Source of the DNA: Paracoccus liaowanqingii
GTDB taxonomy: Bacteria; Pseudomonadota; Alphaproteobacteria; Rhodobacterales; Rhodobacteraceae
Length of the DNA: 64,000 nucleotides
NCBI RefSeq assembly: GCF_004683865.2
Contig: NZ_CP038439.1
Span: forward strand, 2,234,001-2,298,000
Reading direction: 5' to 3'
The translations under genes and the position numbers were made by a program. Positions within the stretch are counted from its first letter, which is position 1, and each line of letters starts with the position of its first letter. Below, in pieces: positions 49,378-64,000 of the stretch. A model generated the notes under the pieces. That model saw nothing but the letters and a program-made list of their open reading frames with translations, did no database searches and was not told the origin of the DNA.

Positions 49378-50046
49378 TCATGGCCTTGCCAACAGTCGGG
49401 TGACGCGCCTGATGTGGGCGATGAGAAGCCAAGCTTCGGCGCTGGCGATGGTTTTCTCCCAGTCCTTTGCCATCCGGCCGCACCGTCCGAGCCATGCGAG
49501 CGTGCGCTCGATCACCCATCGGCGCGGGATGACCTCAAAGCCTTGGGCCGTGTCGGAGCGTTTGACGATCTGCAAGGTCCAGCGCCCGATCTTTTCCAGA
49601 GCCCCGTTCAGCTTTGGCTCGGCGTAGCCGCCATCGGCGAACACATGACGCAGCAACGGATAGGCAGTGGAAATCGATTTCAGCAGATCTGGCGCGCCGT
49701 CTCGGTCCTGAATGTTGGCACCATGAACGGCAAGCCCGACCAGAAGGCCGATGGTATCGGTGACGATGTGGCGCTTGCGCCCGTTGATGCGCTTGGCGGC
49801 GTCATACCCTCTAACCCCTCCACTCTCTGTGGTTTTCACGCTTTGACTGTCGATCACGCCCGCCGACGGGTGGGCCGCCCGGCCTTCGGCCCGACGTGCT
49901 GCCGCAACGAGATGGCGGTTCATTTCATGGAGCAGTCCGTTGTTGCGCCAGTCGTAGAAATAACGCCGCACTGTTGAGACCCGGGGGGAAGTCGTTGGGC
50001 AACATCCGCCACTGGCACCCGGTGGTCGCAATAGACAGGATCGCAT
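49378..50046 (-). CDS. IS5-family (IS427) transposase, catalytic part
   Basis: Reads from the frame after the C6 run (GACTTCCCCCCGGG) as [20 protein letters not shown], then the DDE residues Asp in [13 protein letters not shown], Asp in [12 protein letters not shown] and Glu in [17 protein letters not shown]. It is made as a fusion with the upstream frame (49925-50203) by slippage on the C6 run at 49983-49988. Intact motifs. Confidence 0.85.
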
Positions 50047-50203
50047 CGAAAACGTCGCGCAGAGCGGTTGTCCGGGGACGGCCGACCCGCCTTGGAGCAG
50101 GCAGCAGAGGCGCGATCAGCGCCCACTCAGCATCGCTCGCATCGCTTGCGTATCTGCCACCGCTGCGCTCATATCGCTTCCGGGTGAGTGCGGTCCAGGC
50201 CAT
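49925..50203 (-). CDS. IS5-family (IS427) transposase, DNA-binding part
   Basis: [20 protein letters not shown], then the DUF4096-type region ([26 protein letters not shown]) and [28 protein letters not shown], after which the frame diverges. In IS427 elements the two frames are joined by programmed frameshifting. Confidence 0.85.
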
Positions 50204-50280
50204 CGGGATCTCCGTTCAGCTTCACAACCGAACAGAATCATAACCGGGCGAATTCACCCAACCAGTTTCGGATCAGCCTC

Positions 50281-50598
50281 TAAGGCCAAGGACCCCTTAT
50301 TCACCTGAAGAACCGCTCACAGGTCGCCCAGACCACCTTCCTTTTGCGGTCACGTCTTCGACATTCGAGATCGCCGGATGCTCCGGCCGTTATCCGGATG
50401 ATGGGCACAAAGCAGTTCGCGCATGGCGTCGATCTTGTCACTTTCATTTTCCGCGGATCTTCAAGGCGAAAGGAACAAGTCTCGACGTGCGTTTCCCGTG
50501 CGCCATCCGGCCCGATGAAACACAGGGCGCGCAGTTGGACGAGTGAAGACCCAAAGGTGTATCCTCGGGCGACTACAGTGCAGGTAGGAGAGCAACTT
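50281..50598. other. Upstream region of the sigma-54-type gene
   Basis: About 320 bases from the IS5 end to the start of the sigma-54-type gene. No gene or clear promoter recognised. The IS may have displaced the native promoter. Confidence 0.4.
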
Positions 50599-51849
50599 AT
50601 GGCAATCTGTCCGCGATTCGAAATCACGCCAAGAGCAACGCTCCGAATTGGGCCTGAGCTGGTGCAGGCCATTGGCCTTCTGAGCCTTAGGAACGCGGAC
50701 TTGGCGGCGGATCTGGCCAAGGCTGCGCGCGGCAACCCGTTTCTGCGTCTCGCAGGCGCGGGGGCCGACCCTGAGACCTTGGCGGCCATGCCGTCCGGGC
50801 TTCACGCGCATGTGTTGACCGAAATTGGCTTTCTCGCCCTCACCCCTGACGAGTGGCGGATCGCGCAGGCTTTTCTCGAGGCGCTCGCCCCTTCCGGCTG
50901 GCTCGATGCGACGATAGAGGAGGTGGCGACGCGCGCAGGCGTCCCGACGGCTCGGACCGAAGCCGTGCTCAGACGCCTTCAGCAGATCGCACCTTCGGGA
51001 CTGTTCGCCCGGTCTCTGGCGGAGTGCCTTGAGCTTCAGGCCCGCGATCGCGGTCTGCTGACGGATGAAGTGGCGGCTGTACTTCGATCGCTCGGAGCGA
51101 TAGCCGACGGCGGGATCTCTGCACTGGCCGAGGCGAGCGGCCTGTCAATTAAAGCGGTCGACGCCGCACTCGCGGCGCTTCGGACGCTGGACCCAAAGCC
51201 CGGGGCCAGTTTCGCGGCGGCGGACCAATCACTCCTGCGTGCACCTGATTTCGTGGCCACGAGGATCGGGCATGGGACAAAGCAGGGCTGGCTGGTGGAA
51301 CTCAACGCGGCGACCCTGCCCGACATCGAGGCTCTTGGCTGCGATGACGACGCGCCTCTCACCCTGCGCCGGGCCGCGCAGGAGGCGCGGTCGCTCGCAC
51401 GCGCGGTGGCTCGTCGGAACAGCACGCTTCTGGCGGTTGGACGCGCGCTAGTGCGCAGGCAGTCCGCCTATCTGAAGATGGAGGTTCCCGATCCCGCGCC
51501 GCTGGTCCGGGCCGAGATCGCCGGGATGGCGGGCGTGCATGAAAGCACAGTATCGCGGGTGGCGCAGGCGATGACCATGCAGACGCCAAGGGGCGTCATC
51601 GGCCTCGCCAGCCTGTTTTCGCGGCCGGTTTCGGGAGGCGGCTGTTCGGTTAGCGCGCTCAGGGCGCGCATCGGGTCGATCATCGCAGCCGAGCCATGCG
51701 CGCGACCGCTGAGCGATGCCGCCATTGCCGACCGCCTTGCCGCCGACGGCATCGCCGTCGCCCAGCGCAGCGTGGCGCGGCACCGGGAACATCTTGGCAT
51801 CCCGGCGCGGGCGGTGCGGCGCAGGACCGGCCCGCGACGGCCTGCCTGA
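50599..51849 (+). CDS. rpoN: Sigma-54 family RNA polymerase factor
   Basis: 416 residues from ATG 50599, with TAGGAGAG upstream. Region I at the N-terminus (ITPRATLRIGPELVQAIGLL SLRN) resembles the activator-responsive segment, followed by the core-binding domain (LTPDEWRIAQAFLEALAPSG WLDATIEEVATRAG) and the DNA-binding domain: helix-turn-helix GVHESTVSRVAQAM (near 311) and an RpoN box AQRSVARHREHL (near 388; consensus ARRTVAKYRE). It is shorter than many RpoN proteins (about 420-500). Probably a paralogue with a restricted regulon: the first eCIS gene, 240 bp downstream, has a sigma-54-type site. It would need an activator ATPase, not found in the window. Confidence 0.9.
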   Translation: MAICPRFEITPRATLRIGPELVQAIGLLSLRNADLAADLAKAARGNPFLRLAGAGADPETLAAMPSGLHAHVLTEIGFLALTPDEWRIAQAFLEALAPSGWLDATIEEVATRAGVPTARTEAVLRRLQQIAPSGLFARSLAECLELQARDRGLLTDEVAAVLRSLGAIADGGISALAEASGLSIKAVDAALAALRTLDPKPGASFAAADQSLLRAPDFVATRIGHGTKQGWLVELNAATLPDIEALGCDDDAPLTLRRAAQEARSLARAVARRNSTLLAVGRALVRRQSAYLKMEVPDPAPLVRAEIAGMAGVHESTVSRVAQAMTMQTPRGVIGLASLFSRPVSGGGCSVSALRARIGSIIAAEPCARPLSDAAIADRLAADGIAVAQRSVARHREHLGIPARAVRRRTGPRRPA

Positions 51850-51851
51850 AA

Positions 51852-51871
51852 CGCGCGGGGCCCGCGCGCGG
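51852..51871 (+). terminator. GC-rich palindrome after the sigma-54-type gene
   Basis: CGCGCGGGGCCCGCGCGCG lies directly after the stop. It can form a stem but has little loop and no T-tract; a weak terminator candidate separating the sigma gene from the eCIS operon. Confidence 0.3.
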
Positions 51872-52037
51872 TCTCGGGGGGATGTTTTCCTCCCGCATCC
51901 ATGCCTTTGATCCGGTGGACAAAAGCGGCGCGGGCGCCCGCCCAGGCGTGACGAAATTGTCTCGTGCTTTACGTGCTTTTTCGAAAATGGGACCGGACTA
52001 CAGGCTAAGCGATTGATTTTCCAAGTCCCGCCGAAAC

Positions 52038-52053
52038 TGGACAGATTCTTGCA
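52038..52053 (+). promoter_or_regulatory. Sigma-54-type -24/-12 promoter of the eCIS operon
   Basis: TGGACAGATTCTTGCA matches the sigma-54 consensus TGGCAC-N5-TTGCA in layout: GG at 52039-52040 and GC at 52051-52052 with exactly 10 bases between. The expected start is about 12 bases downstream, around 52063, some 29 bases before the first eCIS codon. The adjacent upstream gene is itself a sigma-54 family factor. No activator-binding site could be assigned. Confidence 0.75.
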
Positions 52054-52066
52054 TTTATAGGGTCAG

Positions 52067-52082
52067 GCGCCATTTCTGGCGC
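52067..52082 (+). repeat. Hairpin in the 5' leader of the eCIS operon
   Basis: GCGCCA (52067-52072) and TGGCGC (52077-52082) pair around TTTC, just after the predicted transcription start and about 10 bases before the start codon region. It may stabilise the message or limit ribosome access. Confidence 0.45.
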
Positions 52083-52091
52083 GAGTATAGG

Positions 52092-52697
52092 ATGGTCATG
52101 GCCGGTTCCGGTGTCATCAGCGACGTCTCGCTTACATTGATCAACGTGCTCGACACGGCGCTCGGATCCTTGTTTCCGGCGCCTGCCCCGCAGGTAATCC
52201 TGCACGACCTGCAAGGCGTGATCTCGACAAATCCGGCGACGCTGGCGGTGCTGCTTTATGAGGTGACAGAAGACGCCTCCACCCGGAATCGGCCGATGCA
52301 GCGCGCCGTTACCGCTGGGGGGCGCGTGCTGCGCAAGCCGTTGATGACGCTGATCCTGCGCTACATGATCGTGCCCTATGCCGGGGACCGTCTGACCGAG
52401 CAACAGATGCTGGGCCGGGCGATGCAGACGATCTATGACAATTCGATCTTTTCGGGTCCCGACCTGCGCGGCGCGGCGGCGCCGGCCGGTCTGGTCGGGT
52501 CCTCGGACACGCTTGCCGCGACGCTCGACCCGCTCAGCCTGGAAGAACGAACGCGGGTCTGGCACGCCATCCAGAAGCCCTACCGGTTGTCGATCTGCTA
52601 TCAGATCCGGGTTGCCAATGTCGAACCGACCATCGACGTGCCGACCGATCTGGTGCGCAGCCGGAACTTCGATCAGGCCGTTCCGGTGGGCGAATGA
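52092..52697 (+). CDS. eCIS DUF4255-family protein (Pvc16/Afp16-like)
   Basis: 201 residues, first gene of the injection-system operon. VISDVSLTLINVLDTALGSL, ISTNPATLAVLLYEVTEDAS, RKPLMTLILRYMIVPYAGDR and DPLSLEERTRVWHAIQKPYR LSICYQIRV fit DUF4255, the domain of Afp16/Pvc16, which in the related Afp/PVC particles caps or ends the tube-sheath assembly. ATG 52092 and ATG 52098 are both possible starts. The 3' end overlaps the next gene by 4 bp. Confidence 0.9.
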   Translation: MVMAGSGVISDVSLTLINVLDTALGSLFPAPAPQVILHDLQGVISTNPATLAVLLYEVTEDASTRNRPMQRAVTAGGRVLRKPLMTLILRYMIVPYAGDRLTEQQMLGRAMQTIYDNSIFSGPDLRGAAAPAGLVGSSDTLAATLDPLSLEERTRVWHAIQKPYRLSICYQIRVANVEPTIDVPTDLVRSRNFDQAVPVGE

Positions 52698-53347
52698 CCC
52701 AGTGGCGCATCATATCCGCCGCACGGCGCGTCACCTTCTGCCCGGTGGCGCTTGATCTGCGAGACGAATTCACCGGGCGCGGCGCGTTCGGCCCGATCGG
52801 CCTCAGGCTCGACCGGCAGATCGGGTCAGACTGGGCCCCGACCAACCTTCAGCCAGCGCGCAATTCGGCCGGCGTGTTCCTTTATACCGGGCTTGGCCGG
52901 ATGTTTGATCCGGCGGCATTGCCGGGCTTTCGCATCCGCGTGCGGATCGAGGCGGAATATTACCGGCCTGCCTTCGGCACCACCGATGACGGTATCGAGT
53001 TCGACGTGCCGACCTATAACGACACGGTCCCGCCGCTGGTGTCGCCGCTGGTGCCCGAGGTGGTCTTGATGCTGCCGACGACGGGCTATCCCTTTGGTGG
53101 CCATGTGCGGCGGATCCATGGCCGGGTACTGGACCCCGGCGGCGCGCCCCTGGCCGATGCCACGGTCGAGGCTGATGGCGTCGAGCGGGTGATCACCGAT
53201 GAACGCGGCGCCTTCACCCTGCCGCTGCGCTGGCAGACCGCCACCGCGAACGTCAACGTGGCGCATCTGCGCAGTGGCCAGGTTGCTGCGCAGATCTTTA
53301 ACCTTCCCGCCGATCTTACCGGCAACCACGACATCACTGTGACCTGA
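52694..53347 (+). CDS. eCIS protein with carboxypeptidase-regulatory-like domain
   Basis: 217 residues. The N-terminal 125 residues are unlike anything I recognise (FLYTGLGRMFDPAALPGFRI). A transthyretin-like regulatory fold follows: GHVRRIHGRVLDPGGAPLAD ATVEADG, DERGAFTLPLRW. Such extensions often occur in eCIS gene clusters next to DUF4255 proteins. A structural, probably surface-exposed role in the particle is inferred. It overlaps the DUF4255 gene by 4 bp. Confidence 0.7.
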   Translation: MTQWRIISAARRVTFCPVALDLRDEFTGRGAFGPIGLRLDRQIGSDWAPTNLQPARNSAGVFLYTGLGRMFDPAALPGFRIRVRIEAEYYRPAFGTTDDGIEFDVPTYNDTVPPLVSPLVPEVVLMLPTTGYPFGGHVRRIHGRVLDPGGAPLADATVEADGVERVITDERGAFTLPLRWQTATANVNVAHLRSGQVAAQIFNLPADLTGNHDITVT

Positions 53348-53385: not shown

Positions 53386-55014
53386 ATGCCAGAATATCTC
53401 GCCCCAGGCGTCTACATGGAGGAAATCCCGAGCGGCCCGGTGCCGATCGAAGGGGTTTCGACCAGCACCGCGGGGTTTGCCGGGCTGACCGAGCGCGGCC
53501 CGACACAGCCCCGGCTTGTGACTGGATGGGGCGACTACGTGGCCTGGTTCGGCGGCCTGATCGACCCGGCCGAAAGCTTCCTGCCCTGGGCGGTGAAGGG
53601 ATTTTTCGACAATGCCGGCCTGCGGATGTTCGTGGCCCGGGTGATCCGCAACGACGCCACGATCGCGGCGCTGGATCATCCGACCGCGGGCGCGGGCCAG
53701 ACCGTACTGATCAGCGCGCAGGCCGAGGGCGCATGGGGTGACCGCATCTTCCTGCGAATCGCCGCCGGCACCAATTTCGATCCAGCCAATCCGCCGCCGC
53801 GCCCGCCGATCACGGTGACGGTGCTTTACTACGCGACGATGCCGCCGCTGCCGTTCGTTGATCCGCTGGACAATGCCAATATCGCCGATCCGAACCGGCG
53901 CGAGCCCACCGTGGTCGAACAGTTCGAGAATGTGGGCTGGCACCCTGACGAGCAGGATTTTTTCATCGACTACATCAACGCACGCTCCAAGTTGATTGAT
54001 CTCGGCTGGACCGACCTGACCCAGCCGTCAGCGCGCCCGAACGACACCGGTTTCGTGCAACTCACCAGCCTGCGGGGCATTGATGGTGTCGCACCGCTTG
54101 GCGCGGGCGCTTTCGCGGGCAATGTTGCGGCGCCCGCGGGCACCCGTACGGGACTGGCCGGACTGGCCGATATCGACGAGATCTCGATCCTTGCTGCGCC
54201 CGACCACGTCAACGCCACGGCGCTGCCGAACATCGCCGACCGCGACGCGCTGCGCAACAACGTGATCAACCAGTGCGAGATCCTGAAGGACCGTTTCGCC
54301 GTCGTCAGCGTGGCCGCCGGGCAGGGCAACATCGCGGGCCTGCGCCCGCCGCGGGACAGTTCATACGCCGCGTTCTACGCGCCCTGGATCCGGGTCTTCG
54401 ATCCGCGCACCTCCGGAACCCACCTGGTGCCACCCGTCGGCCATGTGGCGGGGATCTATGCCCGCGTCGATGTGGAGCGCGGGGTGCACAAGGCGCCCGC
54501 CAACGAGGTGGTGCGCGGCATGGTGACGTCGAACATCAACGCCACGCGGCGGCCGCTGGAATTCACCTTCGGCAAGGGCGAGCAGGACATCCTGAACCCG
54601 CGAAGCGTCAACGTGATCCGCGACTTCCGCGCCGACCGGCGGGGCATCCGGGTCTATGGCGGGCGCACGATGTCGTCCGATCCGACCTGGCGCTATGTCA
54701 ACGTCCGCCGCTTGCTTCTTTATATCGAAGAATCAATCGAGGAAGGCACGCAATGGGTCGTGTTCGAGCCGAATGACGAGCCGCTCTGGGCGCGGGTGCG
54801 CCAGAGCGTGCGCAACTTCCTTCTGCTGACCTGGCGCAGCGGCGCCCTGCAGGGCCAGAAGGAGAACGAGGCCTTCTTCGTCAAGTGCGACCGCACCACC
54901 ATGACCCAAGCGGATATCGATGCGGGACGGCTGATCTGCCACATCGGGGTCGCCCCGGTGAAACCGGCCGAATTCGTGATCTTCCGCATCCAGCTCAACA
55001 CCTCGACCGAGTAA
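53386..55014 (+). CDS. Contractile sheath protein 1
   Basis: 542 residues. The N-terminus EYLAPGVYMEEIPSGPVPIE GVSTSTAGFAG is the hallmark of phage/eCIS sheath proteins (APGVY.EE). The C-terminal sheath core has RRPLEFTFGKGEQDILNPRS VNVIRDF, RRLLLYIEESIEEGTQWVVF and the final GVAPVKPAEFVIFRIQLNTS. It forms the outer contractile sheath around the tube. RBS AAGGAGG is 6 bases before ATG. Followed by tube 1 after 12 bases. Confidence 0.95.
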   Translation: MPEYLAPGVYMEEIPSGPVPIEGVSTSTAGFAGLTERGPTQPRLVTGWGDYVAWFGGLIDPAESFLPWAVKGFFDNAGLRMFVARVIRNDATIAALDHPTAGAGQTVLISAQAEGAWGDRIFLRIAAGTNFDPANPPPRPPITVTVLYYATMPPLPFVDPLDNANIADPNRREPTVVEQFENVGWHPDEQDFFIDYINARSKLIDLGWTDLTQPSARPNDTGFVQLTSLRGIDGVAPLGAGAFAGNVAAPAGTRTGLAGLADIDEISILAAPDHVNATALPNIADRDALRNNVINQCEILKDRFAVVSVAAGQGNIAGLRPPRDSSYAAFYAPWIRVFDPRTSGTHLVPPVGHVAGIYARVDVERGVHKAPANEVVRGMVTSNINATRRPLEFTFGKGEQDILNPRSVNVIRDFRADRRGIRVYGGRTMSSDPTWRYVNVRRLLLYIEESIEEGTQWVVFEPNDEPLWARVRQSVRNFLLLTWRSGALQGQKENEAFFVKCDRTTMTQADIDAGRLICHIGVAPVKPAEFVIFRIQLNTSTE

Positions 55015-55026
55015 GGAGACGCTCCC

Positions 55027-55482
55027 ATGCCGACCATCCAGCGAAACGACCCCTACTCGTCGTACAACTTCCTGCTCACGGTGAACGGGATCTCGAACGA
55101 CGGCGAGGCCGTCGGCGGATCGTTCACCGAGATCGGAGGGCTTGAGTTCGAGCTGAGCCCGATCGAATACCGCAACGGCAGCGAGGCGATCACGCCGCGC
55201 AAGATGCCGGGGCTGGCCAAGTACACCAACATCACCTGCAAGCGCGGCGCGACCGGCGACCTGATCTTCTGGAACTGGGTCCTGGCCGGCGTTCAGGGGT
55301 CGATCATCCGAGCGGACGGATCGGTGATCCTGCTCGACGAGAACCGGGGCGAGGTCATGCGCTGGAACTTCCGCCGGGCCTGGCCCTGCAAGTATACCGG
55401 TCCAGGCTTCAACGCCGCCAACAACGAGATCGCCATGGAAACCCTCGAGCTTTGCCACGAGGGCCTGGAGATCGATCAGTAA
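55027..55482 (+). CDS. Inner tube protein 1 (gp19-like)
   Basis: 151 residues: PYSSYNFLLTVNGISNDGEA VGGSFTEIGGLEFELSPIEY RNGSEAITPRKMPGLAKYTN ITCKRG and a C-terminus IAMETLELCHEGLEI. This is the phage T4 gp19-like/Hcp-fold tube protein (Afp1/Afp5, Pvc1/Pvc5), hexamers of which stack to make the inner tube. RBS AAGGAG precedes the ATG. Confidence 0.95.
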   Translation: MPTIQRNDPYSSYNFLLTVNGISNDGEAVGGSFTEIGGLEFELSPIEYRNGSEAITPRKMPGLAKYTNITCKRGATGDLIFWNWVLAGVQGSIIRADGSVILLDENRGEVMRWNFRRAWPCKYTGPGFNAANNEIAMETLELCHEGLEIDQ

Positions 55483-55483
55483 G

Positions 55484-57034
55484 ATGGTCCTGCGTCCACT
55501 TCCCCCGGGCGGCCTGCCCCGCGTCACTTTCGAAGCGCGGCGGCCGTCGGAACTGGCCCCCCTGCGCACCGATATCGCGCTGGCCCTTGGCACGGCACCG
55601 CGCGGGCCGGTGGACATGCCTGTGCGGATCGAGGGCTGGCGGACCTATGAGAGCGTGTTCGGCGGCATGACGGCGGACTCGTTCACGGGGCACGCGCTGA
55701 AGGGATATTTCGAGAATGGCGGACAGATCGCCTGGGTGCTGCGGTTGGCGCCGGGGGCGCGGCCGGCGAGTGGACTGTGGGCGGTCTTAGGTGACGGTGG
55801 CTTTGCGCCCGAACGGCTGGGGCAGGAAGCGTTTCGGGTCAGTGCTGCGACGCCGGGCGCATGGGGCGGGGCGGTGAGCGTGCGCCCCCGCTTCCGCGTG
55901 CTGTCGAATGGCGCGGGCGTCATCGACATCGACGTGCATGACGGCGGCCGGATTGTCGAACAACTGGTCGGGATCGACCCTGCGGCGCTGTCGGTGACGG
56001 TGGCGGAGCGGTCGGCGCTGATCCGGATCGATCCTGAGGTGGGGGCGGCACCGCTGCCACCGGCGGCGGGCGCTGGACCGCGCGTCCGGATCTGGGGGCC
56101 GGTGGCGTTGTCCGGTGGGATCGACGGCGCAGCGCCGGCGCGCGCGGACTATGCCACAGCTCTCGAACACGCGCTGGAAGAACCCGAACCGGCGCTAATC
56201 GTGCTTCCCGATCTGCACCGGCATGTTGGACCGGATGATGCGGCGGCGGTGCTTCTTGCCGCCGCGCGGATGGTCGATCCGCTGCTAGACCGGATGGTGG
56301 TGGCGGATGCGCCCGAGGCGATCGGAACCGCGGCGGACGCCACGGCCTGGATTGAGCGATTCGGCGGTGATCCGGCGGTACACCGGACGGTTGCCACCTA
56401 TCACCCCTGGATCGACATGCGCGACCCGGTCGGCTCGCTGGCCGCGCCGCTGCGCAGGCTGCCGCCGTCGGGGCATGTGGCGGGTGCGATCAGCCGCCTC
56501 GACCGGACGCAGGGCGCCTATGTGACGCCTGCCAACACCTCGCTGAGTGAGGCCGTCGATCTGGCACGCCGGTTCGAGCCGGCAGATCAGGACGCGCTGT
56601 CGAGCATAGGACTGAACGCGCTGCGCTGCCAGTCGGCGCGCGGCATCGTGGTCTGGGGCGGGCGCATGACGCGCAGCGACGACGCCCGCACCCGCTTCGT
56701 CGCACATCGCCGTCTTGTCCACCGGATCGTGCGGGCGCTGCGCCGCACCTGGGCGCCGATGGTGTTCGAGCCGAATGACGACGCGCAGCGCTTTGCCATC
56801 GCGCGTTCGGCGACGACGCTGCTGTTGGAGGCATTCCATGCCAACGTGCTGAAGGGCAACCGCCCCGACGAGGCCTTTCGCGTCATCGTCGACGATACGG
56901 TCAATACGCCCCAGACGCGCGAGGCGGGACAGTTGTTCTGCGAGATCGCCATCGCGCCAGCGACACCGATGGAATTCATCCATTTCCGGGTTGGGCTGAG
57001 CGCCGACGGAACCGTGGAGTTCATCGAGCCATGA
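55484..57034 (+). CDS. Contractile sheath protein 2
   Basis: 516 residues, less conserved at the N-terminus (PLPPGGLPRVTFEARRPSEL APLRTDIALALG) but with the sheath core: YESVFGGMTADSFTGHALKG YFENGGQIAWVLR, TYHPWIDMRDPVGSLAAPLR RLPPSGHVAG, ARGIVVWGGRMTR, and RTWAPMVFEPNDDAQRFAIA R. Afp/PVC operons carry several sheath paralogues (Afp2-4); this one is probably the base-proximal or divergent copy. Starts 2 bp after tube 1 and overlaps tube 2 by 4 bp. Confidence 0.9.
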   Translation: MVLRPLPPGGLPRVTFEARRPSELAPLRTDIALALGTAPRGPVDMPVRIEGWRTYESVFGGMTADSFTGHALKGYFENGGQIAWVLRLAPGARPASGLWAVLGDGGFAPERLGQEAFRVSAATPGAWGGAVSVRPRFRVLSNGAGVIDIDVHDGGRIVEQLVGIDPAALSVTVAERSALIRIDPEVGAAPLPPAAGAGPRVRIWGPVALSGGIDGAAPARADYATALEHALEEPEPALIVLPDLHRHVGPDDAAAVLLAAARMVDPLLDRMVVADAPEAIGTAADATAWIERFGGDPAVHRTVATYHPWIDMRDPVGSLAAPLRRLPPSGHVAGAISRLDRTQGAYVTPANTSLSEAVDLARRFEPADQDALSSIGLNALRCQSARGIVVWGGRMTRSDDARTRFVAHRRLVHRIVRALRRTWAPMVFEPNDDAQRFAIARSATTLLLEAFHANVLKGNRPDEAFRVIVDDTVNTPQTREAGQLFCEIAIAPATPMEFIHFRVGLSADGTVEFIEP

Positions 57035-57528
57035 GCGACGATGTCCAGAATGCCTTTCGGTTTCTCGTGACACTCGATCCGTTCGATGCGTTCGTTCCGC
57101 GCGAGCTGATCGCGACCGCGCTGGAACTGGCGCCAGGTGCCTTCCAGTCCTGCACCGGACTTGGCGGCGAACTGGAAGTGACCGGCTATCCCGAAGGCGG
57201 GCGGAACGATTATGTGCACCAGCTTCCGGTCCGCCACAGCTGGGGGCGGATCACGCTATCGAAGGGCATCGCCCGCGACCCGATCCTCTTCGCCTGGTAC
57301 GAGGCGGGTCTGTTCGGGTCGCTTGGCGCGCGGCGTGACGGCGCGATCATCATGCAGACCCCGCAGGGTATACCCACGATGATCTGGACCTTCACCGGCG
57401 GTCTCGCCGCGCGCTGGAGCGGCCCCGACTTCAACGCCGGCCAGGACGGCCTTGCCATCGAAAGTATCGAAATCGCGCATCAGGGCATCAAGGCGGTGCC
57501 CGGACCCGCGCTGCTGGGGTTTGCATGA
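57031..57528 (+). CDS. Inner tube protein 2 (gp19-like)
   Basis: 165 residues: DDVQNAFRFLVTLDPFDAFV, a central FQSCTGLGGELEVTGYPEGG RNDYVHQLPVRHSWGRITLS KG and a C-terminal NAGQDGLAIESIEIAHQGIK. It is of the tube fold and clearly divergent from tube 1; such second tube copies join the tube to the baseplate hub. Starts within the sheath 2 stop codon region. Confidence 0.9.
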   Translation: MSDDVQNAFRFLVTLDPFDAFVPRELIATALELAPGAFQSCTGLGGELEVTGYPEGGRNDYVHQLPVRHSWGRITLSKGIARDPILFAWYEAGLFGSLGARRDGAIIMQTPQGIPTMIWTFTGGLAARWSGPDFNAGQDGLAIESIEIAHQGIKAVPGPALLGFA

Positions 57529-57719
57529 CCATGATCCAGATCGACAAGCTGACCATCACCGTGACAGTCGAGGGCGACGCTGATGCCGGCGAACGCGCCT
57601 TCGCCCTCCTGTTCGACAAGTTCAACCGCCTGCGCGACGAACGTCTGGCGCAGCGAACCGAACAGAGTGCCACACTGGCGCGCGACCGGTCGCTGAACCC
57701 GCGCGGTGGGAGGCACTGA
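57525..57719 (+). CDS. Small eCIS protein (DUF5908-like)
   Basis: 64 residues: MIQIDKLTITVTVEGDADAG ERAFALLFDKFNRLRDERLA QRTEQ. Small proteins with this 'I.KL.I...V' start lie between tube and LysM genes in eCIS clusters and are grouped as DUF5908. A chaperone or linker role is presumed. It overlaps both neighbours by 1-4 bp. Confidence 0.75.
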   Translation: MTMIQIDKLTITVTVEGDADAGERAFALLFDKFNRLRDERLAQRTEQSATLARDRSLNPRGGRH

Positions 57720-58411
57720 TGGACCTGAACCCGCCGCAGATACCCTTCCTGTCGGTTGGTGGCGACTTCGAGAAGGCGATTCTGAAGATCGTCGTGCCCG
57801 AGGTCGACGAACCGGAAATCCCGTTGAAGTTCAATCCGACGAGCTACCAGCTTCAGAAGGCCAACACCTTTTCCGAGATCGAGATCCCGGGGCTCGAGAC
57901 GCCGCCGATCCAGTACATCCGCGGCGGCAACGAGACGCTTCGCTTCGACGCCCTGTTCGACACCTCCGACAGTCAGAAGAACGTCCGTGAGGAATATGTC
58001 GATAAGGTCGCGAACCTGATGCGGATCAATTCCGAACTGCACGCCCCGCCGATCGTCCAATTCGTCTGGGAGACCGAAATCTTCCAGGGCGTGGTGTCGG
58101 ACATGTCGGTCTCTTACGTCCTGTTCACGCCGAAGGGCATCCCGATGCGCGCCGAGGTCAGCCTGACACTGACCGCCTATCGTCCGGTCGAGGTCCAGAT
58201 CGCCGAGCGGCCGCGCAATTCGCCCGATGTCGAGAAGAGCGTGACGCTCAGGCGCGGCGACCGGCTCGACCAGATCGCCTCGGGCGTCTACCAGGATCCG
58301 GCGCGCTGGCGCGACATCGCCCGCTCCAACGGCATCCGCGACCCGCGCCGGCTGGTTCCAGGCGCCCTGCTTCTGGTCCCGCGCATCAGCCGGGGACGGG
58401 GGCAGGCATGA
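57719..58411 (+). CDS. eCIS LysM-containing tube/hub connector (Afp7/Pvc7-like)
   Basis: 230 residues. The N-terminal CIS tube-connector domain has EIPLKFNPTSYQLQKANTFS EIEIPGLETPPIQYIRGGNE TLRFDALFDTSD. The C-terminal LysM unit (RRGDRLDQIASGVYQDPARW RDIARSNGIRDPRRLVPGAL LLVPR) spans about 180-225. In the Afp/PVC particles Afp7-type proteins link the tube to the spike complex. It overlaps the next gene by 4 bp. Confidence 0.9.
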   Translation: MDLNPPQIPFLSVGGDFEKAILKIVVPEVDEPEIPLKFNPTSYQLQKANTFSEIEIPGLETPPIQYIRGGNETLRFDALFDTSDSQKNVREEYVDKVANLMRINSELHAPPIVQFVWETEIFQGVVSDMSVSYVLFTPKGIPMRAEVSLTLTAYRPVEVQIAERPRNSPDVEKSVTLRRGDRLDQIASGVYQDPARWRDIARSNGIRDPRRLVPGALLLVPRISRGRGQA

Positions 58412-59550
58412 GCTTTTTCGCCACCACCATCAACGGCCTGCCGCCCACCGGCCACTATGCCCCCGACTTCCAGGTCGAGATCGAGGGCGAACCGCTGGAT
58501 CCTGAATCGAAGGGCGACGTGCTGTCGCTCAAGGTCGTGATGGATCTGGAAAACATGACCAGCGCCGAGATCGAGCTGAACAACTGGGACGACCGCCGCG
58601 TGTGGTTCAAGTATTCCGACCAGTCCGGAATCTATGTCGGCAACCGGGTCCATGTGAAGATGGGCTATGCGGACCGGATCCTGTCGATGCTCGAAGGCAG
58701 GATCAACAGCCTGACGCCGCAGTTCCCTTCGACCGGGTCCTCCACACTGTCGGTCGGTGTTCTGGACAACATGCAGCTTCTGAAGGACCGCCGCCCCGCC
58801 GAGGGCGAGCAGCGCCAGTTTCGGGGAATGACTGACCCCGAGATCGCGCGCGCCATCGCCACGCGCAACGGGCTGGAGGCGGATGTCGATGATGGCGGGG
58901 CCGAGCACGACGAGGTGATCCAGGGCGACCTTGATGATGCCCAATTCCTGACCCAGCGCGCGCGCCGGACCGACAGCGACTGCTTCATCTATACAGATCC
59001 CGACAGCGGTGCCGCGAAGCTGCGTTTCGGCGCCCCGCGCGACGAGCGGGCGGGAGGGCGGGCGCGCAACCATGCCTTCGTCTGGGGCGAGTCGCTCAAG
59101 TCGTTCAGCCCGACGCTGACCATGTCGAGCCAAGTCGCGCAGGTCACCGTGCGCGGCTGGAACGAGGAAGAGATGGAACCCATCGTCGCCACCGCGACCC
59201 AAGCCGACATCGCGGACGCGGCGGGCGGCAACACCGGTGCCGGCAATGCTGAGACTGCGGTGGGCGGGCGCGAGGATGTGGTGATCGGCGCCGCAGTGAC
59301 CACCCAGGCCGAGGCGGACGCGCTGGCCCGCGCACTTTTGCGCGAGCGCGCCTATGAGTTCATCACCGGCAAGGGCGAGATCATCGGCCTGCCAGATCTG
59401 CGACCGGGCGACACCATGACCATCGCGGGCCTCGGCGACCGGTTCAGCGGCACCTATTACGTCAAGAAGGTCGAGCACGAGATCGGCTCGGGCGGGTACG
59501 GCACGCGGTTCGAGGTGCGAAAATCTTACGACGAGGGGGCCAACTCATGA
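58408..59550 (+). CDS. Baseplate hub protein (gpD/VgrG N-terminal-like, Pvc8 first part)
   Basis: 380 residues of the phage late control gene D type: APDFQVEIEGEPLDPESKGD VLSLKVVMDLENMTSAEIEL NNWDD, YADRILSMLEGRINSLTPQF, GLEADVDDGGAEHDEVIQGD LDDAQFLTQRARRTDSDCFI Y and DLRPGDTMTIAGLGDRFSGT YYVKKVEHEI. Together with the gpV-like protein encoded next it would form the spike that VgrG makes as one chain. Overlaps both neighbours by ATGA. Confidence 0.9.
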   Translation: MSFFATTINGLPPTGHYAPDFQVEIEGEPLDPESKGDVLSLKVVMDLENMTSAEIELNNWDDRRVWFKYSDQSGIYVGNRVHVKMGYADRILSMLEGRINSLTPQFPSTGSSTLSVGVLDNMQLLKDRRPAEGEQRQFRGMTDPEIARAIATRNGLEADVDDGGAEHDEVIQGDLDDAQFLTQRARRTDSDCFIYTDPDSGAAKLRFGAPRDERAGGRARNHAFVWGESLKSFSPTLTMSSQVAQVTVRGWNEEEMEPIVATATQADIADAAGGNTGAGNAETAVGGREDVVIGAAVTTQAEADALARALLRERAYEFITGKGEIIGLPDLRPGDTMTIAGLGDRFSGTYYVKKVEHEIGSGGYGTRFEVRKSYDEGANS

Positions 59551-60131
59551 CCGCACAATCCTATTCCAGCGAATTCGGCGAATGCACCGAAACCTTCTAT
59601 GGCCTCTATCCCGGCGTCGCCGAGAACGTGGTGGACCCCGAGAACCGTGGCCGGATCACGGTGCTGCTGCCCTGGATCTCGGACACCTACGAGACCCGCT
59701 TCGCCCTCGTGGCGCAGGTCTATGCGGGGGACGGCTACGGAACGGTCTGGCTTCCCGAGCAGGGCGATCAGGTCGTTGTGGCCTTCATGAAGGGCCAGCT
59801 TTCTCGGCCTGTCGTGCTTGGGTCGATCTACGCCAAGAAGCGCAAGCCGAAGGCGGGGCGCACCGACAGCGAAGACCCGAAGATCTTTCGCACCAAGGGC
59901 GGACATTACCTTCTGATGGAGGACAAGAAAGGCCAGCGGATCGAGCTTGTCGATCTGACCGGCAGGAATTCGGTGGTAATCGACAGTGAGTCCAACAGCG
60001 TGACGGTAAAGGCCAGTAGCAATCTCACGCTAGAGGCGGGTTCCGACATCACCATAAACGCGGGCGGGTCGCTGACGATCAAGGCCGCAGGCGCAGTCAG
60101 CCTATCGGGAAGCACGATCAACCTGAACTGA
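59547..60131 (+). CDS. Baseplate spike protein (gpV/gp5-like, Pvc8 second part)
   Basis: 194 residues: FYGLYPGVAENVVDPENRGR ITVLLPWIS, an OB-fold domain (GYGTVWLPEQGDQVVVAFMK GQLSRPVVLGSIY), then repeated strands ending in ASSNLTLEAGSDITINAGGS LTIKAAGAVSLSG, the beta-helix needle that pairs with the PAAR tip. It begins in the gpD stop. The split of VgrG into two chains is normal for eCIS and phages. Confidence 0.95.
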   Translation: MTAQSYSSEFGECTETFYGLYPGVAENVVDPENRGRITVLLPWISDTYETRFALVAQVYAGDGYGTVWLPEQGDQVVVAFMKGQLSRPVVLGSIYAKKRKPKAGRTDSEDPKIFRTKGGHYLLMEDKKGQRIELVDLTGRNSVVIDSESNSVTVKASSNLTLEAGSDITINAGGSLTIKAAGAVSLSGSTINLN

Positions 60132-60144
60132 GGGAGGCGACACC

Positions 60145-60531
60145 ATGGGTCAACCCGCAGCGAAAGAAGGCGACACAGTGGTCGGGGTCGACATTCATGT
60201 CGTGCTGGTCCCCGCACCGCCGGCATCGCCGGTTCCAACGCCTCTGCCCCACCGGTTTTCCGGGCCACTTGTTAGCGATCTGTCGTCGGATGTGAAGATC
60301 GAGGGGCTTGCGGCCGCCACGGAAGGCAGCGTGGCCGAGAACCGTCCGCCGCATATCCCCACACCGCCCGGCGTATCGTTCCAGTCGCCGCCCGACAACA
60401 GCGGCACGGTCCAAAGCGGCAGTACCACTGTGAAGATCAACGGCAAGGCCGCGGCACGTGTTGGAGATCCGGTGCAGACCTGCGATGGCAGCGGGGCGAT
60501 CACCGGCGTTTCCACAGTGATGATCGGATAG
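60145..60531 (+). CDS. PAAR-domain spike tip (Pvc10-like)
   Basis: 128 residues. An N-terminal PAAR-like half (MGQPAAKEGDTVVGVDIHVV LVPAPPASPVPTPLPHRFSG) and a C-terminal half GSTTVKINGKAAARVGDPVQ TCDGSGAITGVSTVMIG show the paired turns of a PAAR cone that sharpens the spike; the central acidic/proline stretch is longer than in the shortest PAAR proteins. RBS GGGAGGCG precedes the ATG. Confidence 0.9.
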   Translation: MGQPAAKEGDTVVGVDIHVVLVPAPPASPVPTPLPHRFSGPLVSDLSSDVKIEGLAAATEGSVAENRPPHIPTPPGVSFQSPPDNSGTVQSGSTTVKINGKAAARVGDPVQTCDGSGAITGVSTVMIG

Positions 60532-60535
60532 GGCG

Positions 60536-60955
60536 ATGAGCGTGCGAGACGATATCATCGGCTTCGGGTGGCGGTTCCCGCTCCTGCCCGACGCGCGCGG
60601 CCGCCTGGGTTACGTGGGCGGCGAGGACAATATCGAGCAGTCGCTGCGCATCCTGCTTCTGACAAGCCTGCGCGAGCGCGTCATGCGCAGCGATTTCGGC
60701 ACTTCGGCCCGCGAGCAGATCTTCGCGCCGGGATCCGAGAAGGGACTGCGCCTGCTGGAGCGTCGCGTCGCGGCGGCGCTGCGCGATCACGAGCCGCGGA
60801 TCGAGGTCAAGAACCTGCGCGCCGAGGCCGATCCGCGCGACGAGACCCATGTGAACCTCGAGATCAGCTATCAGATCCGCGCCACCTATGTGCGCGGCAA
60901 CCTGGTGTTTCCGTTCTATATCGACGGCTTCGGACCTGAGGAGGCCGCGTCATGA
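60536..60955 (+). CDS. GPW/gp25-family baseplate wedge protein
   Basis: 139 residues: DIIGFGWRFPLLPDARGRLG Y, EDNIEQSLRILLLTSLRERV MRSDFGT, EKGLRLLERRVAAALRDHEP RIEVKN. This is the gp25/lysozyme-like wedge fold, which connects the sheath to the baseplate. It overlaps the next gene by 4 bp. Confidence 0.95.
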   Translation: MSVRDDIIGFGWRFPLLPDARGRLGYVGGEDNIEQSLRILLLTSLRERVMRSDFGTSAREQIFAPGSEKGLRLLERRVAAALRDHEPRIEVKNLRAEADPRDETHVNLEISYQIRATYVRGNLVFPFYIDGFGPEEAAS

Positions 60956-62931
60956 CCGCGCTTGCCCCCCTGTCGCTCGACGATCTGACCTACGAGGATC
61001 TGCGCCTGATGGCCCTGCGGCGGATCCCTGGGGCCTCGGGGGGCCGCTGGACCCATCACGCTCCCGTCGATCCCGGAGTCACGCTGCTGGAACTGTTCGC
61101 GTTCCTGCTGGAGCAGCAGTTGTTCGTGTTGGATCAGGCGCCCGATGCCCTGACCCATGCGCTGCTGGCGCTGCTGGGCGAGGTGCCGCGTGGCACTGGG
61201 GTCGCGACCACGGTCGTGGCGCTCCGGCCGCGGACGCTGGCGGCATCGCGGATCCTGCCCGCAGGAACGCAGATCCGGCCGGAGGGGGCCGCGCCGTCGG
61301 CGATGATCTTCTCGACAAGGCAGGGCGTTTTGCTGCCGCCGGTGGTGAGCCATGAGGTCTTCGCGGACGGCGTATCCGTGACTGACCGGCTGGAGCGTGG
61401 CGACAGCGTGGCGGTGATGGCGCGTCATGGTGCGGCGGGATCGCTTGGCGTTGAGGTGCGGCTCCGCGCGCCGGTCGCGCCTGGGGATGTGGGCGCGCGG
61501 GTAGCCATCGCGGTCGTACTGGACGGATCGGGCGTCGCGCCGGAATGGCATGCCGAGGCCGCCGAAGCGCCACCGCCGGGGCCGCTGGTGCTGTCTTGGT
61601 CGGTGCCGGGTACGGGGGGCACAGGGGGTGCGGTAGAGGACTGGCAAGACGGGACCGGGGGATTGCGGCGGTCGGGCCTGATCACCTTTGCTCTGCCTGC
61701 GGGTGCCGCGGGCGCCGACCGCCTGCGCCTGACCCTGTCCACCGAGGCCGCGCGCCATGCCGAGCCGCCGAGACTGACGGCGCTGGCCATGGGTGCGGTG
61801 GTGGCCGAGCACAGCCGCGGCGTAGAGATTGCCGATCACGATACCGGCAACGCGGCGCGGGACCGGCTGCGCGCCGAGATTCTAGCGTCCCTGTCTAGGT
61901 TGCTGCCGATCTCGGGGCAGATGCTCGATCTGCCCATGGAGTTCTCACCCGTGATCGAAGACACGCTTGCGCTGCGGCTAGCCGATGCGGTGGGAACCTT
62001 TCACGACTGGGTGCGGCTCCCTGACCTCGGTCCCGCCGCCCCTGAAAACCGCGTCTTCAGCTTCGATCGCAGCCTCGGGCGGCTGGTCTTCGGCGACGGC
62101 TATGCCGGGCGCGTCCCCGCACCCGCGACCAATATCGCGTTGTCCGCGCGAATTGGCGGCGGGCCGGACGGAAACCATGCGGCAGGAATGATCTGGCGCG
62201 CCGCAGAGCCAGGCCTGACCTTCGAGCTTCAATCGCTGGCGCCCGCCGAGGGCGGTGCGGAGCCCGAGCCCCTGGCCGAGGCCCGCGCGCGGGTGGCAGG
62301 GGCGCTTGCGGCGCGTCACCGTGCGGTGACCTCCGAAGATTTCGTGGATCTGGCCGAAACCGCGCCGGGTATCGGCCCGCACCGGGCCTTTGTGATCGCG
62401 GGCCACGATCCGAATTTCCCCTGCCTGTACATCGCCGACAGCGTGACGGTTTTCATCGTTCCGCGAACTGAAATCCACACACCCGCCCCGCGCGCCGACG
62501 ACGGCGCGCTTTCCGTGATCGGCGCACGGCTCGACGCCGCGCGGATGCTGACCACGCGTGTCTTCGTGCGACGCCCGGCCTTCCGACCTGTCGATCTGAG
62601 CATCGAGGTCTCGACGGCCACGGGCGCGCCCGGTCCGCTGGCGGAGATCCTGCGCCCGGTCCTGTCGGAGTATTTGCATCCCGGATTGGGCGGACCCTCC
62701 GGCACCGGTTGGGACTTCGGTCGCCCGCTGCACCCTTCCGAACTGCTCCGGGTGGCCGAACCGGCATTGCCGGCCGGGGCGCGGGTCGAGCGCGTCGCGA
62801 TTCGTCTTGGTGACACCGATGCGCCTGCTGAGGACTGCACCGAGGTCGCCACCGGCCCATCGGATCTGGTGCGGCTCAACCGTCTGGTCGTGCGCGTCCG
62901 GCGCGAAGCAGCCGGGGAGGCCACGCTATGA
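60952..62931 (+). CDS. Baseplate protein J-like (Pvc11/Afp11-like)
   Basis: 659 residues. N-terminal PLSLDDLTYEDLRLMALRRI PGASGGRWTHHAPVDPGVTL LELFAFLLEQQLF is the 'putative baseplate assembly protein' start; the C-terminal half contains the gpJ-like block RHRAVTSEDFVDLAETAPGI and RPAFRPVDLSIEVSTATGAP. It forms part of the wedge of the eCIS baseplate. It overlaps both neighbours by 4 bp. Confidence 0.9.
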   Translation: MTALAPLSLDDLTYEDLRLMALRRIPGASGGRWTHHAPVDPGVTLLELFAFLLEQQLFVLDQAPDALTHALLALLGEVPRGTGVATTVVALRPRTLAASRILPAGTQIRPEGAAPSAMIFSTRQGVLLPPVVSHEVFADGVSVTDRLERGDSVAVMARHGAAGSLGVEVRLRAPVAPGDVGARVAIAVVLDGSGVAPEWHAEAAEAPPPGPLVLSWSVPGTGGTGGAVEDWQDGTGGLRRSGLITFALPAGAAGADRLRLTLSTEAARHAEPPRLTALAMGAVVAEHSRGVEIADHDTGNAARDRLRAEILASLSRLLPISGQMLDLPMEFSPVIEDTLALRLADAVGTFHDWVRLPDLGPAAPENRVFSFDRSLGRLVFGDGYAGRVPAPATNIALSARIGGGPDGNHAAGMIWRAAEPGLTFELQSLAPAEGGAEPEPLAEARARVAGALAARHRAVTSEDFVDLAETAPGIGPHRAFVIAGHDPNFPCLYIADSVTVFIVPRTEIHTPAPRADDGALSVIGARLDAARMLTTRVFVRRPAFRPVDLSIEVSTATGAPGPLAEILRPVLSEYLHPGLGGPSGTGWDFGRPLHPSELLRVAEPALPAGARVERVAIRLGDTDAPAEDCTEVATGPSDLVRLNRLVVRVRREAAGEATL

Positions 62932-64000
62932 CCCGTCCGTGGTGGGAGAGCCCGTGCGTACCGGCAACCATCGTGGATGGTGTGCCCGTGCTGATGCCGG
63001 GCGGTCGGGCTGCGGCGATTGCGGCGCTTCAGGCGCGCATCGCGGGCTATGTGCCCGAATGGCGCGACCTTGGCGAAGAGGATGCGGGCGTCGCGCTGGT
63101 ACGTCTGTTCGGGCTGCTACTCGACCCGATCCTCGCGCGCGCTGAACGGCTGCCCGAGAAGGCGATGGTGGAGTTCCTGTGTGCAGCCGGGCTGAGCCTG
63201 TCCTCCGCGCGCGCGGCCACCGCCATCGCCGTCTTCACGCCCGACGAGCGAAATACCGCGCCGGTGGAGATCCCGCCCGGCACGCGGTTGCTGAGCGCGC
63301 GGGCCGATGGCGAGAAGGGCGACGTCACTTGGGAAACCTCCATCGGGCTGAGCGTGCCCAACCTCACGCTGGTCGAACGCCAGGCCTTCGACGGCGAGGT
63401 CGTGTTGAAGGTATCCGAGGGCGAGACTTTCGCGGCCTTCGGCGACTGGCCCGAGGTCGGTGCCGCGCTCTATCTGGGGTTCGAGGGCGTCGGCCGGGTT
63501 GCCGGACAGCTTTCACTCGCGTTCGAACCTGCCGACAACGGCGCGCCATTGCCGGTGGCGGAGGGCGGCGCGGCGCTTCCGGTGCGCCCGGCACCACAGC
63601 TTCGTTGGGAAGCCCTGACCAATCGCGGCTTCCAGCCCGTCGATGTCGAGGCCGACACGACCGACGCGCTCGGCCGCACCGGGATCGTCACGCTTTCGCT
63701 TCCCAGCACGGTGGTTGCCGGGCGTCCCGCCGCTGTCGGTACCGGCGATCCGCTTTTCTGGCTGCGACTCCGGCTTGCCGGTGGAAGGCTCGACCCGTCG
63801 CCCCGGCTTCGCTCCGTTCACGCCCACGCGGTCGCCATCACGGCAGGTGAAACCGTGCGCAACGAATTCCCGGTACAGCAGGCTGCCGGGCAGTCGTCGC
63901 GCGTGAAGCTTGCACGCGCGCCAGTCCTTTCGGGGTCGGTCGTGCTGGAGGTCGACGAAGGTGCTTCGGGTGCCGACCTGTTCGCCTTGGATGAAGGGGA
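62928..64000 (+). CDS. Baseplate protein J-like (Pvc12/Afp12-like), runs off the window
   Basis: Starts at ATG 62928 in the stop of the previous gene: MTRPWWESPCVPATIVDGVP VLMPGGRAAAIAALQARIAG YVPEWRDLGEEDAGVALVRL FGLLLDPILARAERLPEKAM. The VPEWRDLGEEDAGVALVRLF signature is that of the second, long baseplate assembly protein. At least 357 residues are present and no stop occurs before the window end. Tail fibre, tape measure, AAA+ ATPase and toxin genes would be expected downstream. Confidence 0.9.
   Translation, partial: MTRPWWESPCVPATIVDGVPVLMPGGRAAAIAALQARIAGYVPEWRDLGEEDAGVALVRLFGLLLDPILARAERLPEKAMVEFLCAAGLSLSSARAATAIAVFTPDERNTAPVEIPPGTRLLSARADGEKGDVTWETSIGLSVPNLTLVERQAFDGEVVLKVSEGETFAAFGDWPEVGAALYLGFEGVGRVAGQLSLAFEPADNGAPLPVAEGGAALPVRPAPQLRWEALTNRGFQPVDVEADTTDALGRTGIVTLSLPSTVVAGRPAAVGTGDPLFWLRLRLAGGRLDPSPRLRSVHAHAVAITAGETVRNEFPVQQAAGQSSRVKLARAPVLSGSVVLEVDEGASGADLFALDEG

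Follow-up and report, generated by a model that had tools for sequence, protein, structure and literature searches.

The 64,000-nucleotide stretch of Paracoccus liaowanqingii DNA analysed here (the window; NZ_CP038439.1, positions 2,234,001 to 2,298,000, from a genome, G000, of 4,925,228 bases that is 100% complete) carries a gene for the sigma factor sigma-54 (rpoN) followed by an operon for an extracellular contractile injection system (eCIS). The operon extends 17 kb beyond the window, to window-equivalent ~81009, and past its last gene lies a gene for a bacterial enhancer-binding protein (bEBP), the class of ATPase that activates sigma-54 promoters. The features on which the regulatory argument turns are:

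50599..51849, plus strand: sigma-54 (rpoN), 416 residues, identified by Pfam CBD and DBD domains, PDB matches and AlphaFold/Foldseek; single copy, in a clade with homologues P0002-P0006
52038..52053, plus strand: candidate -24/-12 sigma-54 promoter, TGGACAGATTCTTGCA, from matrix score, control comparison and a counterpart, CGGCACGCGGCTTGCG, in Sphingomonas sp. S1-29 (G528)
52098..52697, plus strand: Pvc16_N protein (PF14065, 110 bits), first eCIS gene; its open reading frame opens at 52092, the start being placed at 52098 by homology
G000:C1:2315039-2316019 (L028:17039-18019), minus strand, beyond the window: orphan bEBP, 326 residues, identified by Pfam domains and its GAFTGA motif

The rpoN frame is intact from an ATG at 50599 to a stop at 51849, giving 416 residues. 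Its core-binding and DNA-binding domains score well above the Pfam cut-offs (Sigma54_CBD 114.3 bits versus 22.9, Sigma54_DBD 125.3 versus 22.8), and Sigma54_AID, at 21.0 bits, is a little under its cut-off of 23.8. The PDB sequence search returns sigma-54 matches, among them a weak alignment (8.3 bits) of residues 12-51 to solved sigma-54 region I. As the NCBIfam equivalog TIGR02395 reaches 245.6 bits against a threshold of 277.35, a limit for naming and not a trait, we take the protein to be a divergent family member. The helix-turn-helix (HTH) motif GVHESTVSRVAQAM and the RpoN box AQRSVARHREHL are both found in it and, with the Pfam domains, bear out the original prediction of a sigma-54 family gene. 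At one position of the box our protein has Q, whereas its five closest homologues have R (within ARR in four of them and PRR in P0006); R is also present in the G528 box (ARRTVAKYR). An AlphaFold model built with 35 aligned sequences has a mean pLDDT (predicted local distance difference test) of 86.7, low at residues 1-14 and 55-65, and a pTM (predicted template-modelling score) of 0.61; in a Foldseek search of the PDB all 31 of 31 matches with E <= 0.001 are sigma-54 chains (top E 2.8e-24). Whole-chain TM scores of about 0.5 and root-mean-square deviations of about 15, in which single domains fit and their mutual arrangement differs, we attribute to a different placement of flexible domains. 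On sequence and modelled structure together, the product is a real sigma-54. A profile search of the whole genome finds Sigma54_DBD in this gene alone; the term paralogue, used when the locus was first described, is thus rejected, with one copy and no second sigma-54 found.

In the interval between rpoN and the first eCIS gene the best -24/-12 match is TGGACAGATTCTTGCA, with GG at 52039-52040 and GC at 52051-52052, and the predicted spacing of 10 bases is confirmed at 52038-52053. The site ends 45 bases before the ATG at 52098, which is probably the true Pvc16 start, and not 52092, since many Pvc16 homologues measure 199 residues; AGGAT lies 4 bases 5' of this ATG. Loose consensus matches in the window are at chance level (35 found, 33.3 expected), and TGGACAGATTCTTGCA, having three mismatches to that consensus, falls outside them. 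By a weighted matrix it ranks third among all 16-mers on both strands of the window. On one background the site scores 12.6 and that of G528 12.0, and for each of the two 33/5000 simulated intergenic sequences reach the site score. None of 49 control Pvc16 upstream regions reaches 11.5, the best being 10.4; with our own locus they make up the 50 of 63 Pvc16_N places for which a locus was retrieved, from draws of the family (394 genomes, about one per genus) and the genus (60 other genomes). For one control, L054, the upstream sequence is shorter than for the others, and all 49 are other eCIS types in which the main promoter need not precede Pvc16. Taken alone, TGGACAGATTCTTGCA is weak-to-moderate evidence for a promoter; it is the existence of a counterpart site in G528 that makes the candidate convincing.

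This relative came from a sheath search at E <= 1e-60 over 289 genomes of the class, which gave three matches besides our own. In G528, a member of another family, the cluster is collinear with that of the window from Pvc16 to the AAA ATPase (sheath 77% identical, tubes 73 and 75%, adaptor 79%, AAA 56%), CGGCACGCGGCTTGCG begins 46 bp before the Pvc16 start, and a bEBP with GAFTGA occupies the same convergent place (62% identity by tblastn, 66% by genome search). No sigma-54 match occurs near the cluster in the 59 kb retrieved, and the sole sigma-54 of that genome is chromosomal, at 3.30 Mb as against 0.95-0.99 Mb for the cluster. Judged from sequence, the linkage of activator and eCIS is conserved, as read in two genomes, and because both bEBP and promoter are kept in G528, there is good support for sigma-54 control in this lineage of eCIS.

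A bEBP gene downstream of the window, which the original prediction had proposed looking for, was indeed found 17 kb beyond the window, where the operon ends; it converges on the last eCIS operon gene at a distance of 29 bp. PF00158 Sigma54_activat (196.9 bits), the AAA lid (70.3) and the Fis-type HTH_8 (29.5) are all above cut-off, and the sigma-54 contact loop reads GAFTGA, in the context GHARGAFTGAV. Among 20 aligned homologues the stretch GKHRRAFF in the HTH is invariant, and 0 of the 25 NCBIfam models listed reach cut-off. Pfam identifies no sensor or receiver domain and the AAA+ domain begins at residue 6, which places the protein in type Ic; a specific signal that switches the particle on, as once proposed, is accordingly not borne out. 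With no sensor domain, the bEBP would be controlled through its own expression or by a separate inhibitor. The genome-wide PF00158 search gave 11 rows, in which GAFTGA is present in the cluster bEBP only: L008 has GAFPGA, L010-L014 a degenerate or missing loop (L015 is part of the L014 gene), L016 and L017 are Clp-like ATPases and L018 is another ATPase without the loop. Pro at the T position of GAFTGA is among 'other replacements inactive' (PMC3162934). Since no other row has GAFTGA, a single evident partner for this sigma-54 remains, encoded at the opposite end of the cluster, and the suggestion of a dedicated sigma-54 emerges stronger than it was made, with one sigma-54 and one GAFTGA PF00158 match in the genome. 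Just past the bEBP gene lies a tRNA-Ser(GGA) (L028:18354-18443), a possible integration landmark. Insertion of the cluster there was considered and rejected: the tRNA 3' end has no second copy in the window at <=2 mismatches, and no att site was found.

We think it probable that this eCIS operon is under sigma-54 control and carries its own transcription apparatus. Holoenzyme containing the 50599-51849 product, the only sigma-54 found in the genome, would bind at 52038-52053 and stay closed; the 326-residue orphan bEBP would bind DNA through its Fis HTH, contact sigma-54 through GAFTGA and open the complex at the expense of ATP, and a transcript starting near 52064 would then cover Pvc16 and the genes for the particle. 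What throws the switch is probably the amount of bEBP present, or else a distinct inhibitor, as for PspF or HrpR/HrpS. Dedication of this sigma-54 to the eCIS is likely, in that it would serve TGGACAGATTCTTGCA and little else. At the predicted 5' end of the transcript, positions 52067-52082 form a 6-bp dyad, GCGCCA-TTTC-TGGCGC, which could give a leader hairpin ahead of the ribosome site.

The remaining features of the window that concern us are:

52694..53347, plus strand: 217-residue protein with a CarboxypepD_reg domain (Pfam), collinear in G528 (59%)
53386..55014, plus strand: contractile sheath 1 (PF17482, PF04984), 77% identical to that of G528, with PDB matches to sheath chains including Pvc2 and Afp3
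55027..55482, plus strand: inner tube protein (PF06841, TIGR02241)
55484..57034, plus strand: second sheath-like protein, 60% identical to its G528 counterpart and 33-35% to G528 sheath 1, assigned by this likeness and not by Pfam
57031..57528, plus strand: second tube protein (PF06841, TIGR02241)
57719..58411, plus strand: CIS tube / LysM-type adaptor (PF19266), with PDB matches including Pvc7 and Afp7
58408..63998, plus strand: VgrG-related spike (58408-59547; NF033848, below cut-off), then proteins collinear with G528, for which gpV-, PAAR-, gp25- and gpJ-like are provisional labels assigned ahead of any scan
46957-48276 and 49378-50046, minus strand: transposases of Mutator and DDE_Tnp_1 type, respectively, just upstream of rpoN

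Sheath, tube, baseplate and spike genes are thus all present, together with an AAA ATPase and the Pvc16-type gene. The gene reaching the window end has Baseplate_J in its C-terminal part and the next has Tail_P2_I (Pfam); CIS12/CIS13 matches among the operon proteins are under cut-off (NCBIfam). TssJ, TssL and TssM, of the membrane complex of the type VI secretion system (T6SS), did not turn up in the Pfam and NCBIfam scans of the proteins scanned, and no search was targeted at them. The 24 translated proteins (sigma-54, eCIS and bEBP) contain no internal stops. The operon ends with the AAA ATPase (97.3 bits, Pfam), Pvc15-type on our reading of its place in the cluster, a 1282-residue repeat-rich protein (L028:12637-16485) and a 181-residue protein with no Pfam match (16464-17009; the two at window-equivalent 76637-81009). 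These last two look like a cargo and partner pair. The G528 protein in the same place has Endonuclea_NS_2 (PF13930) as its C-terminal domain, and the gene after it encodes 206 residues with no Pfam match; such an arrangement is the pattern of polymorphic toxin/immunity pairs.

This type of eCIS appears from our searches to be rare. Of the other two class matches, G758 has a sheath 46% identical and G663 one 41% identical, each over partial length; in the 20 kb retrieved neither shows a match to the bEBP or to rpoN. Beyond our own genome and G528 no bEBP was found at E <= 1e-95 in 237 phylum-draw genomes, nor in 227 genomes drawn from the class, an overlapping set, at E <= 1e-78. Three sheaths at E <= 1e-80 in 248 other Sphingomonas-family genomes are 42-50% identical over partial length, with a bEBP near 0/3 in stretches of 40 kb each, and 0/20 Paracoccus eCIS regions (10.6-19.9 kb) have a bEBP match; neither set of stretches need span whole clusters. 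Among the plasmid matches listed, the best reach 42% for sigma-54, 43% for the bEBP and 43% for Pvc16, the last in Streptomyces; a plasmid of Rhizobium WYJ-E13 has a sheath 44% identical over full length and no rpoN or bEBP match in its 41-kb region. The best plasmid Pvc16 matches listed (H26, H61, Streptomyces clavuligerus, 43%) stand beside 23-32% for the other Paracoccus eCIS that aligned, and in sequence this eCIS type seems distant from others of its genus. Viral contigs yielded no confirmed relative of either the sigma-54 clade or the sheath, and the 63 bEBP matches there, at 31-46% identity, we take as generic. Among metagenome contigs, close homologues of the bEBP and of Pvc16 share three sizes, 58,420, 32,554 and 3,254 bases, in a comparison of 119 and 90 sizes from which our own rows were excluded. 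With 0.67 coincidences expected overall the 3,254 one is within chance, and at least two coincidences above 20 kb arose in 1/20,000 simulations; from this coincidence of size we infer that the 58,420- and 32,554-base contigs each carry both genes. Candidatus Thiodiazotropha sp. is listed for both homologues, on contigs of unlike size.

Several results weigh against the tie of this sigma-54 to the eCIS and against use of the promoter. In the family draw Pvc16_N occurs in 38 genomes, our own included, and sigma-54 in 13 of the other 37, and in 0/37 are the two on one contig and no more than 100 kb apart. In the genus, where 21 genomes including ours have Pvc16_N and six of the others have sigma-54 above cut-off, the count is 0/20, the nearest at 110 kb (G055); several assemblies in both sets are fragmented. 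Linkage of sigma-54 to an eCIS is therefore seen in this genome only: of the association predicted for relatives, the part concerning the sigma gene failed and the part concerning bEBP and promoter held, in G528. The sigma-54 homologues P0002-P0006 (95 to 56% identical) are on contigs of 2.0-9.9 kb, whose sizes equal that of no listed Pvc16 homologue; no eCIS link is shown by them, and the comparison gives no support to a recurrent sigma-54/eCIS linkage and may count against it. The promoter matrix used assumed weights, and the -24 element of our own site is off consensus (GGACA versus GGCAC). An upstream activator site shared with G528 was not found, the best word, TTGTC/GACAA, being matched by chance in 150/1000 simulations, and no sigma-70 consensus promoter for rpoN was seen in 50050-52150, where that consensus only was scanned. 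Finally, with transposases directly upstream, the adjacency of rpoN could be recent or accidental.

The last point leads to the alternative that survives best, in which the eCIS is under sigma-54 and the orphan bEBP and the adjoining sigma-54 is a general accessory factor, there by chance, for instance moved by the transposases at 46957-48276 and 49378-50046, and also serving other promoters. The sigma gene may have come in together with mobile elements or close to them. Sigma-54 is found above cut-off in 8/60 other genomes of the genus, with none in 52/60; G012 gives a ninth, weak match that stays under the cut-off. The only rpoN of P. aminophilus is plasmid-borne (PMC3925955) and a single EBP is mentioned for P. 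denitrificans (PMC3162934), from which sigma-54 is patchy, not absent, in Paracoccus; the plasmid search also matched a sigma-54 on a plasmid of Paracoccus sp. TOH. In a midpoint-rooted tree of 93 sequences our sigma-54 groups with P0002-P0006 (support 1.0), and this clade is nested in one of 14 members (0.96) which includes the sigma-54 of another Paracoccus (L036, G052). Groups wider than this, weakly supported (0.41-0.57), also take in L029 and L155, from the same genus, and L004, from Pseudorhodobacter; the chromosomal sigma-54 of G528 (L148) lies outside them. In G052 and G497, both of the genus, sigma-54 is close to a GAFTGA bEBP with no eCIS gene near it in the 20 kb retrieved, and these loci suggest that sigma-54 and bEBP pairs are small accessory units in the genus. 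Two further genus members with sigma-54, G053 and G058, have a bEBP with NAFTGA, not GAFTGA (L033:6502, L035:11396). A G-to-N change in GAFTGA is described for the P. denitrificans EBP (PMC3162934), and by this match the two would represent another sigma-54 lineage of the genus, distinct from the first. The accessory-factor reading thus draws on the transposases, on genus sigma-54 genes elsewhere without eCIS in 20 kb, two of them beside a GAFTGA bEBP, and on closest homologues without a demonstrated eCIS link. Against it, ours is the only sigma-54 found in the genome with no second GAFTGA among the PF00158 rows, which would leave any other sigma-54 promoters without an evident activator, and we regard this alternative as unlikely.

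Less probable still, and in our view improbable, is an eCIS promoter of sigma-70 or other type, with sigma-54, bEBP and -24/-12 match as coincidental neighbours. Two 16-mers of the window do outscore TGGACAGATTCTTGCA, and the eCIS regulators named in a survey are LuxR-type (GerE), BTAD and RfaH (PMC8213781); but in G528 the bEBP recurs at the corresponding position and there is an independent site, 0/49 controls reach the score, and the 50050-52150 scan for the sigma-70 consensus alone was negative. That the module is inactive, its sigma-54 decayed from an older system and its promoter or RpoN box no longer working, is scarcely credible, for the R to Q change, a Sigma54_AID slightly under cut-off and the off-consensus -24 element are set against an open 416-residue frame with an equal-length homologue at 95% identity, a model with mean pLDDT 86.7 and 24 proteins free of internal stops.

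The preferred reading, an eCIS operon under sigma-54 with its own sigma factor and activator, can be compared with known systems. VasH and Sfa2 act with a chromosomal RpoN whose gene lies elsewhere. As in their T6SS clusters (VasH in Vibrio cholerae, Sfa2 in the Pseudomonas aeruginosa H2-T6SS; PMC10482370), a contractile injection machine has a sigma-54 activator encoded in the cluster; unlike them, the machine here is an eCIS and the sigma factor itself, the sole one found in the genome, adjoins the cluster. The bEBP resembles type Ic proteins (PspF, HrpR/HrpS, LafK) in having an AAA+ domain and HTH and no sensor domain (PMC3162934), and differs in its invariant GKHRRAFF across 20 homologues and its eCIS linkage in the two genomes read. 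Like the specialised RpoN proteins of Rhodobacter/Cereibacter sphaeroides, this is an alphaproteobacterial sigma-54 tied to one system (RpoN3 has a cognate activator, according to the title of PMC11999139), but that species has three or four RpoN paralogues (PMC3162934), and here a single, eCIS-linked copy is present. Regulator genes adjoining eCIS operons are known (GerE/LuxR-type, BTAD, RfaH; PMC8213781); none of these is a sigma-54 or bEBP, and 'sigma' and 'NtrC' occur 0 times as word starts in the main text of that survey. No report of sigma-54 control of an eCIS was found in open-licence literature; in the part of PMC10599522 consulted, the eCIS phrase occurs only within a reference.

How eCIS operons are activated in general is largely unknown, and for one eCIS lineage these data point to a testable route to the on-switch, through sigma-54 and a named orphan activator family. 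That the cluster is a mobile unit bringing its own sigma-54 is, from one genome, a good hypothesis. By a modest margin of belief, we favour a history in which an older module of eCIS, bEBP and -24/-12 promoter spread in Proteobacteria on host sigma-54 and then, in a Paracoccus-like, sigma-54-poor lineage, captured a sigma gene from a sporadic, partly plasmid-borne Rhodobacteraceae pool. The result would be a mobile eCIS with a private channel of sigma-54, activator and promoter, expressible in hosts that have lost sigma-54, and by this means a weapon cluster that moves horizontally could escape dependence on host sigma factors. The activator may also provide a practical handle with which to switch on a silent particle for study, and its orphan bEBP clade may mark this eCIS type in metagenomes.

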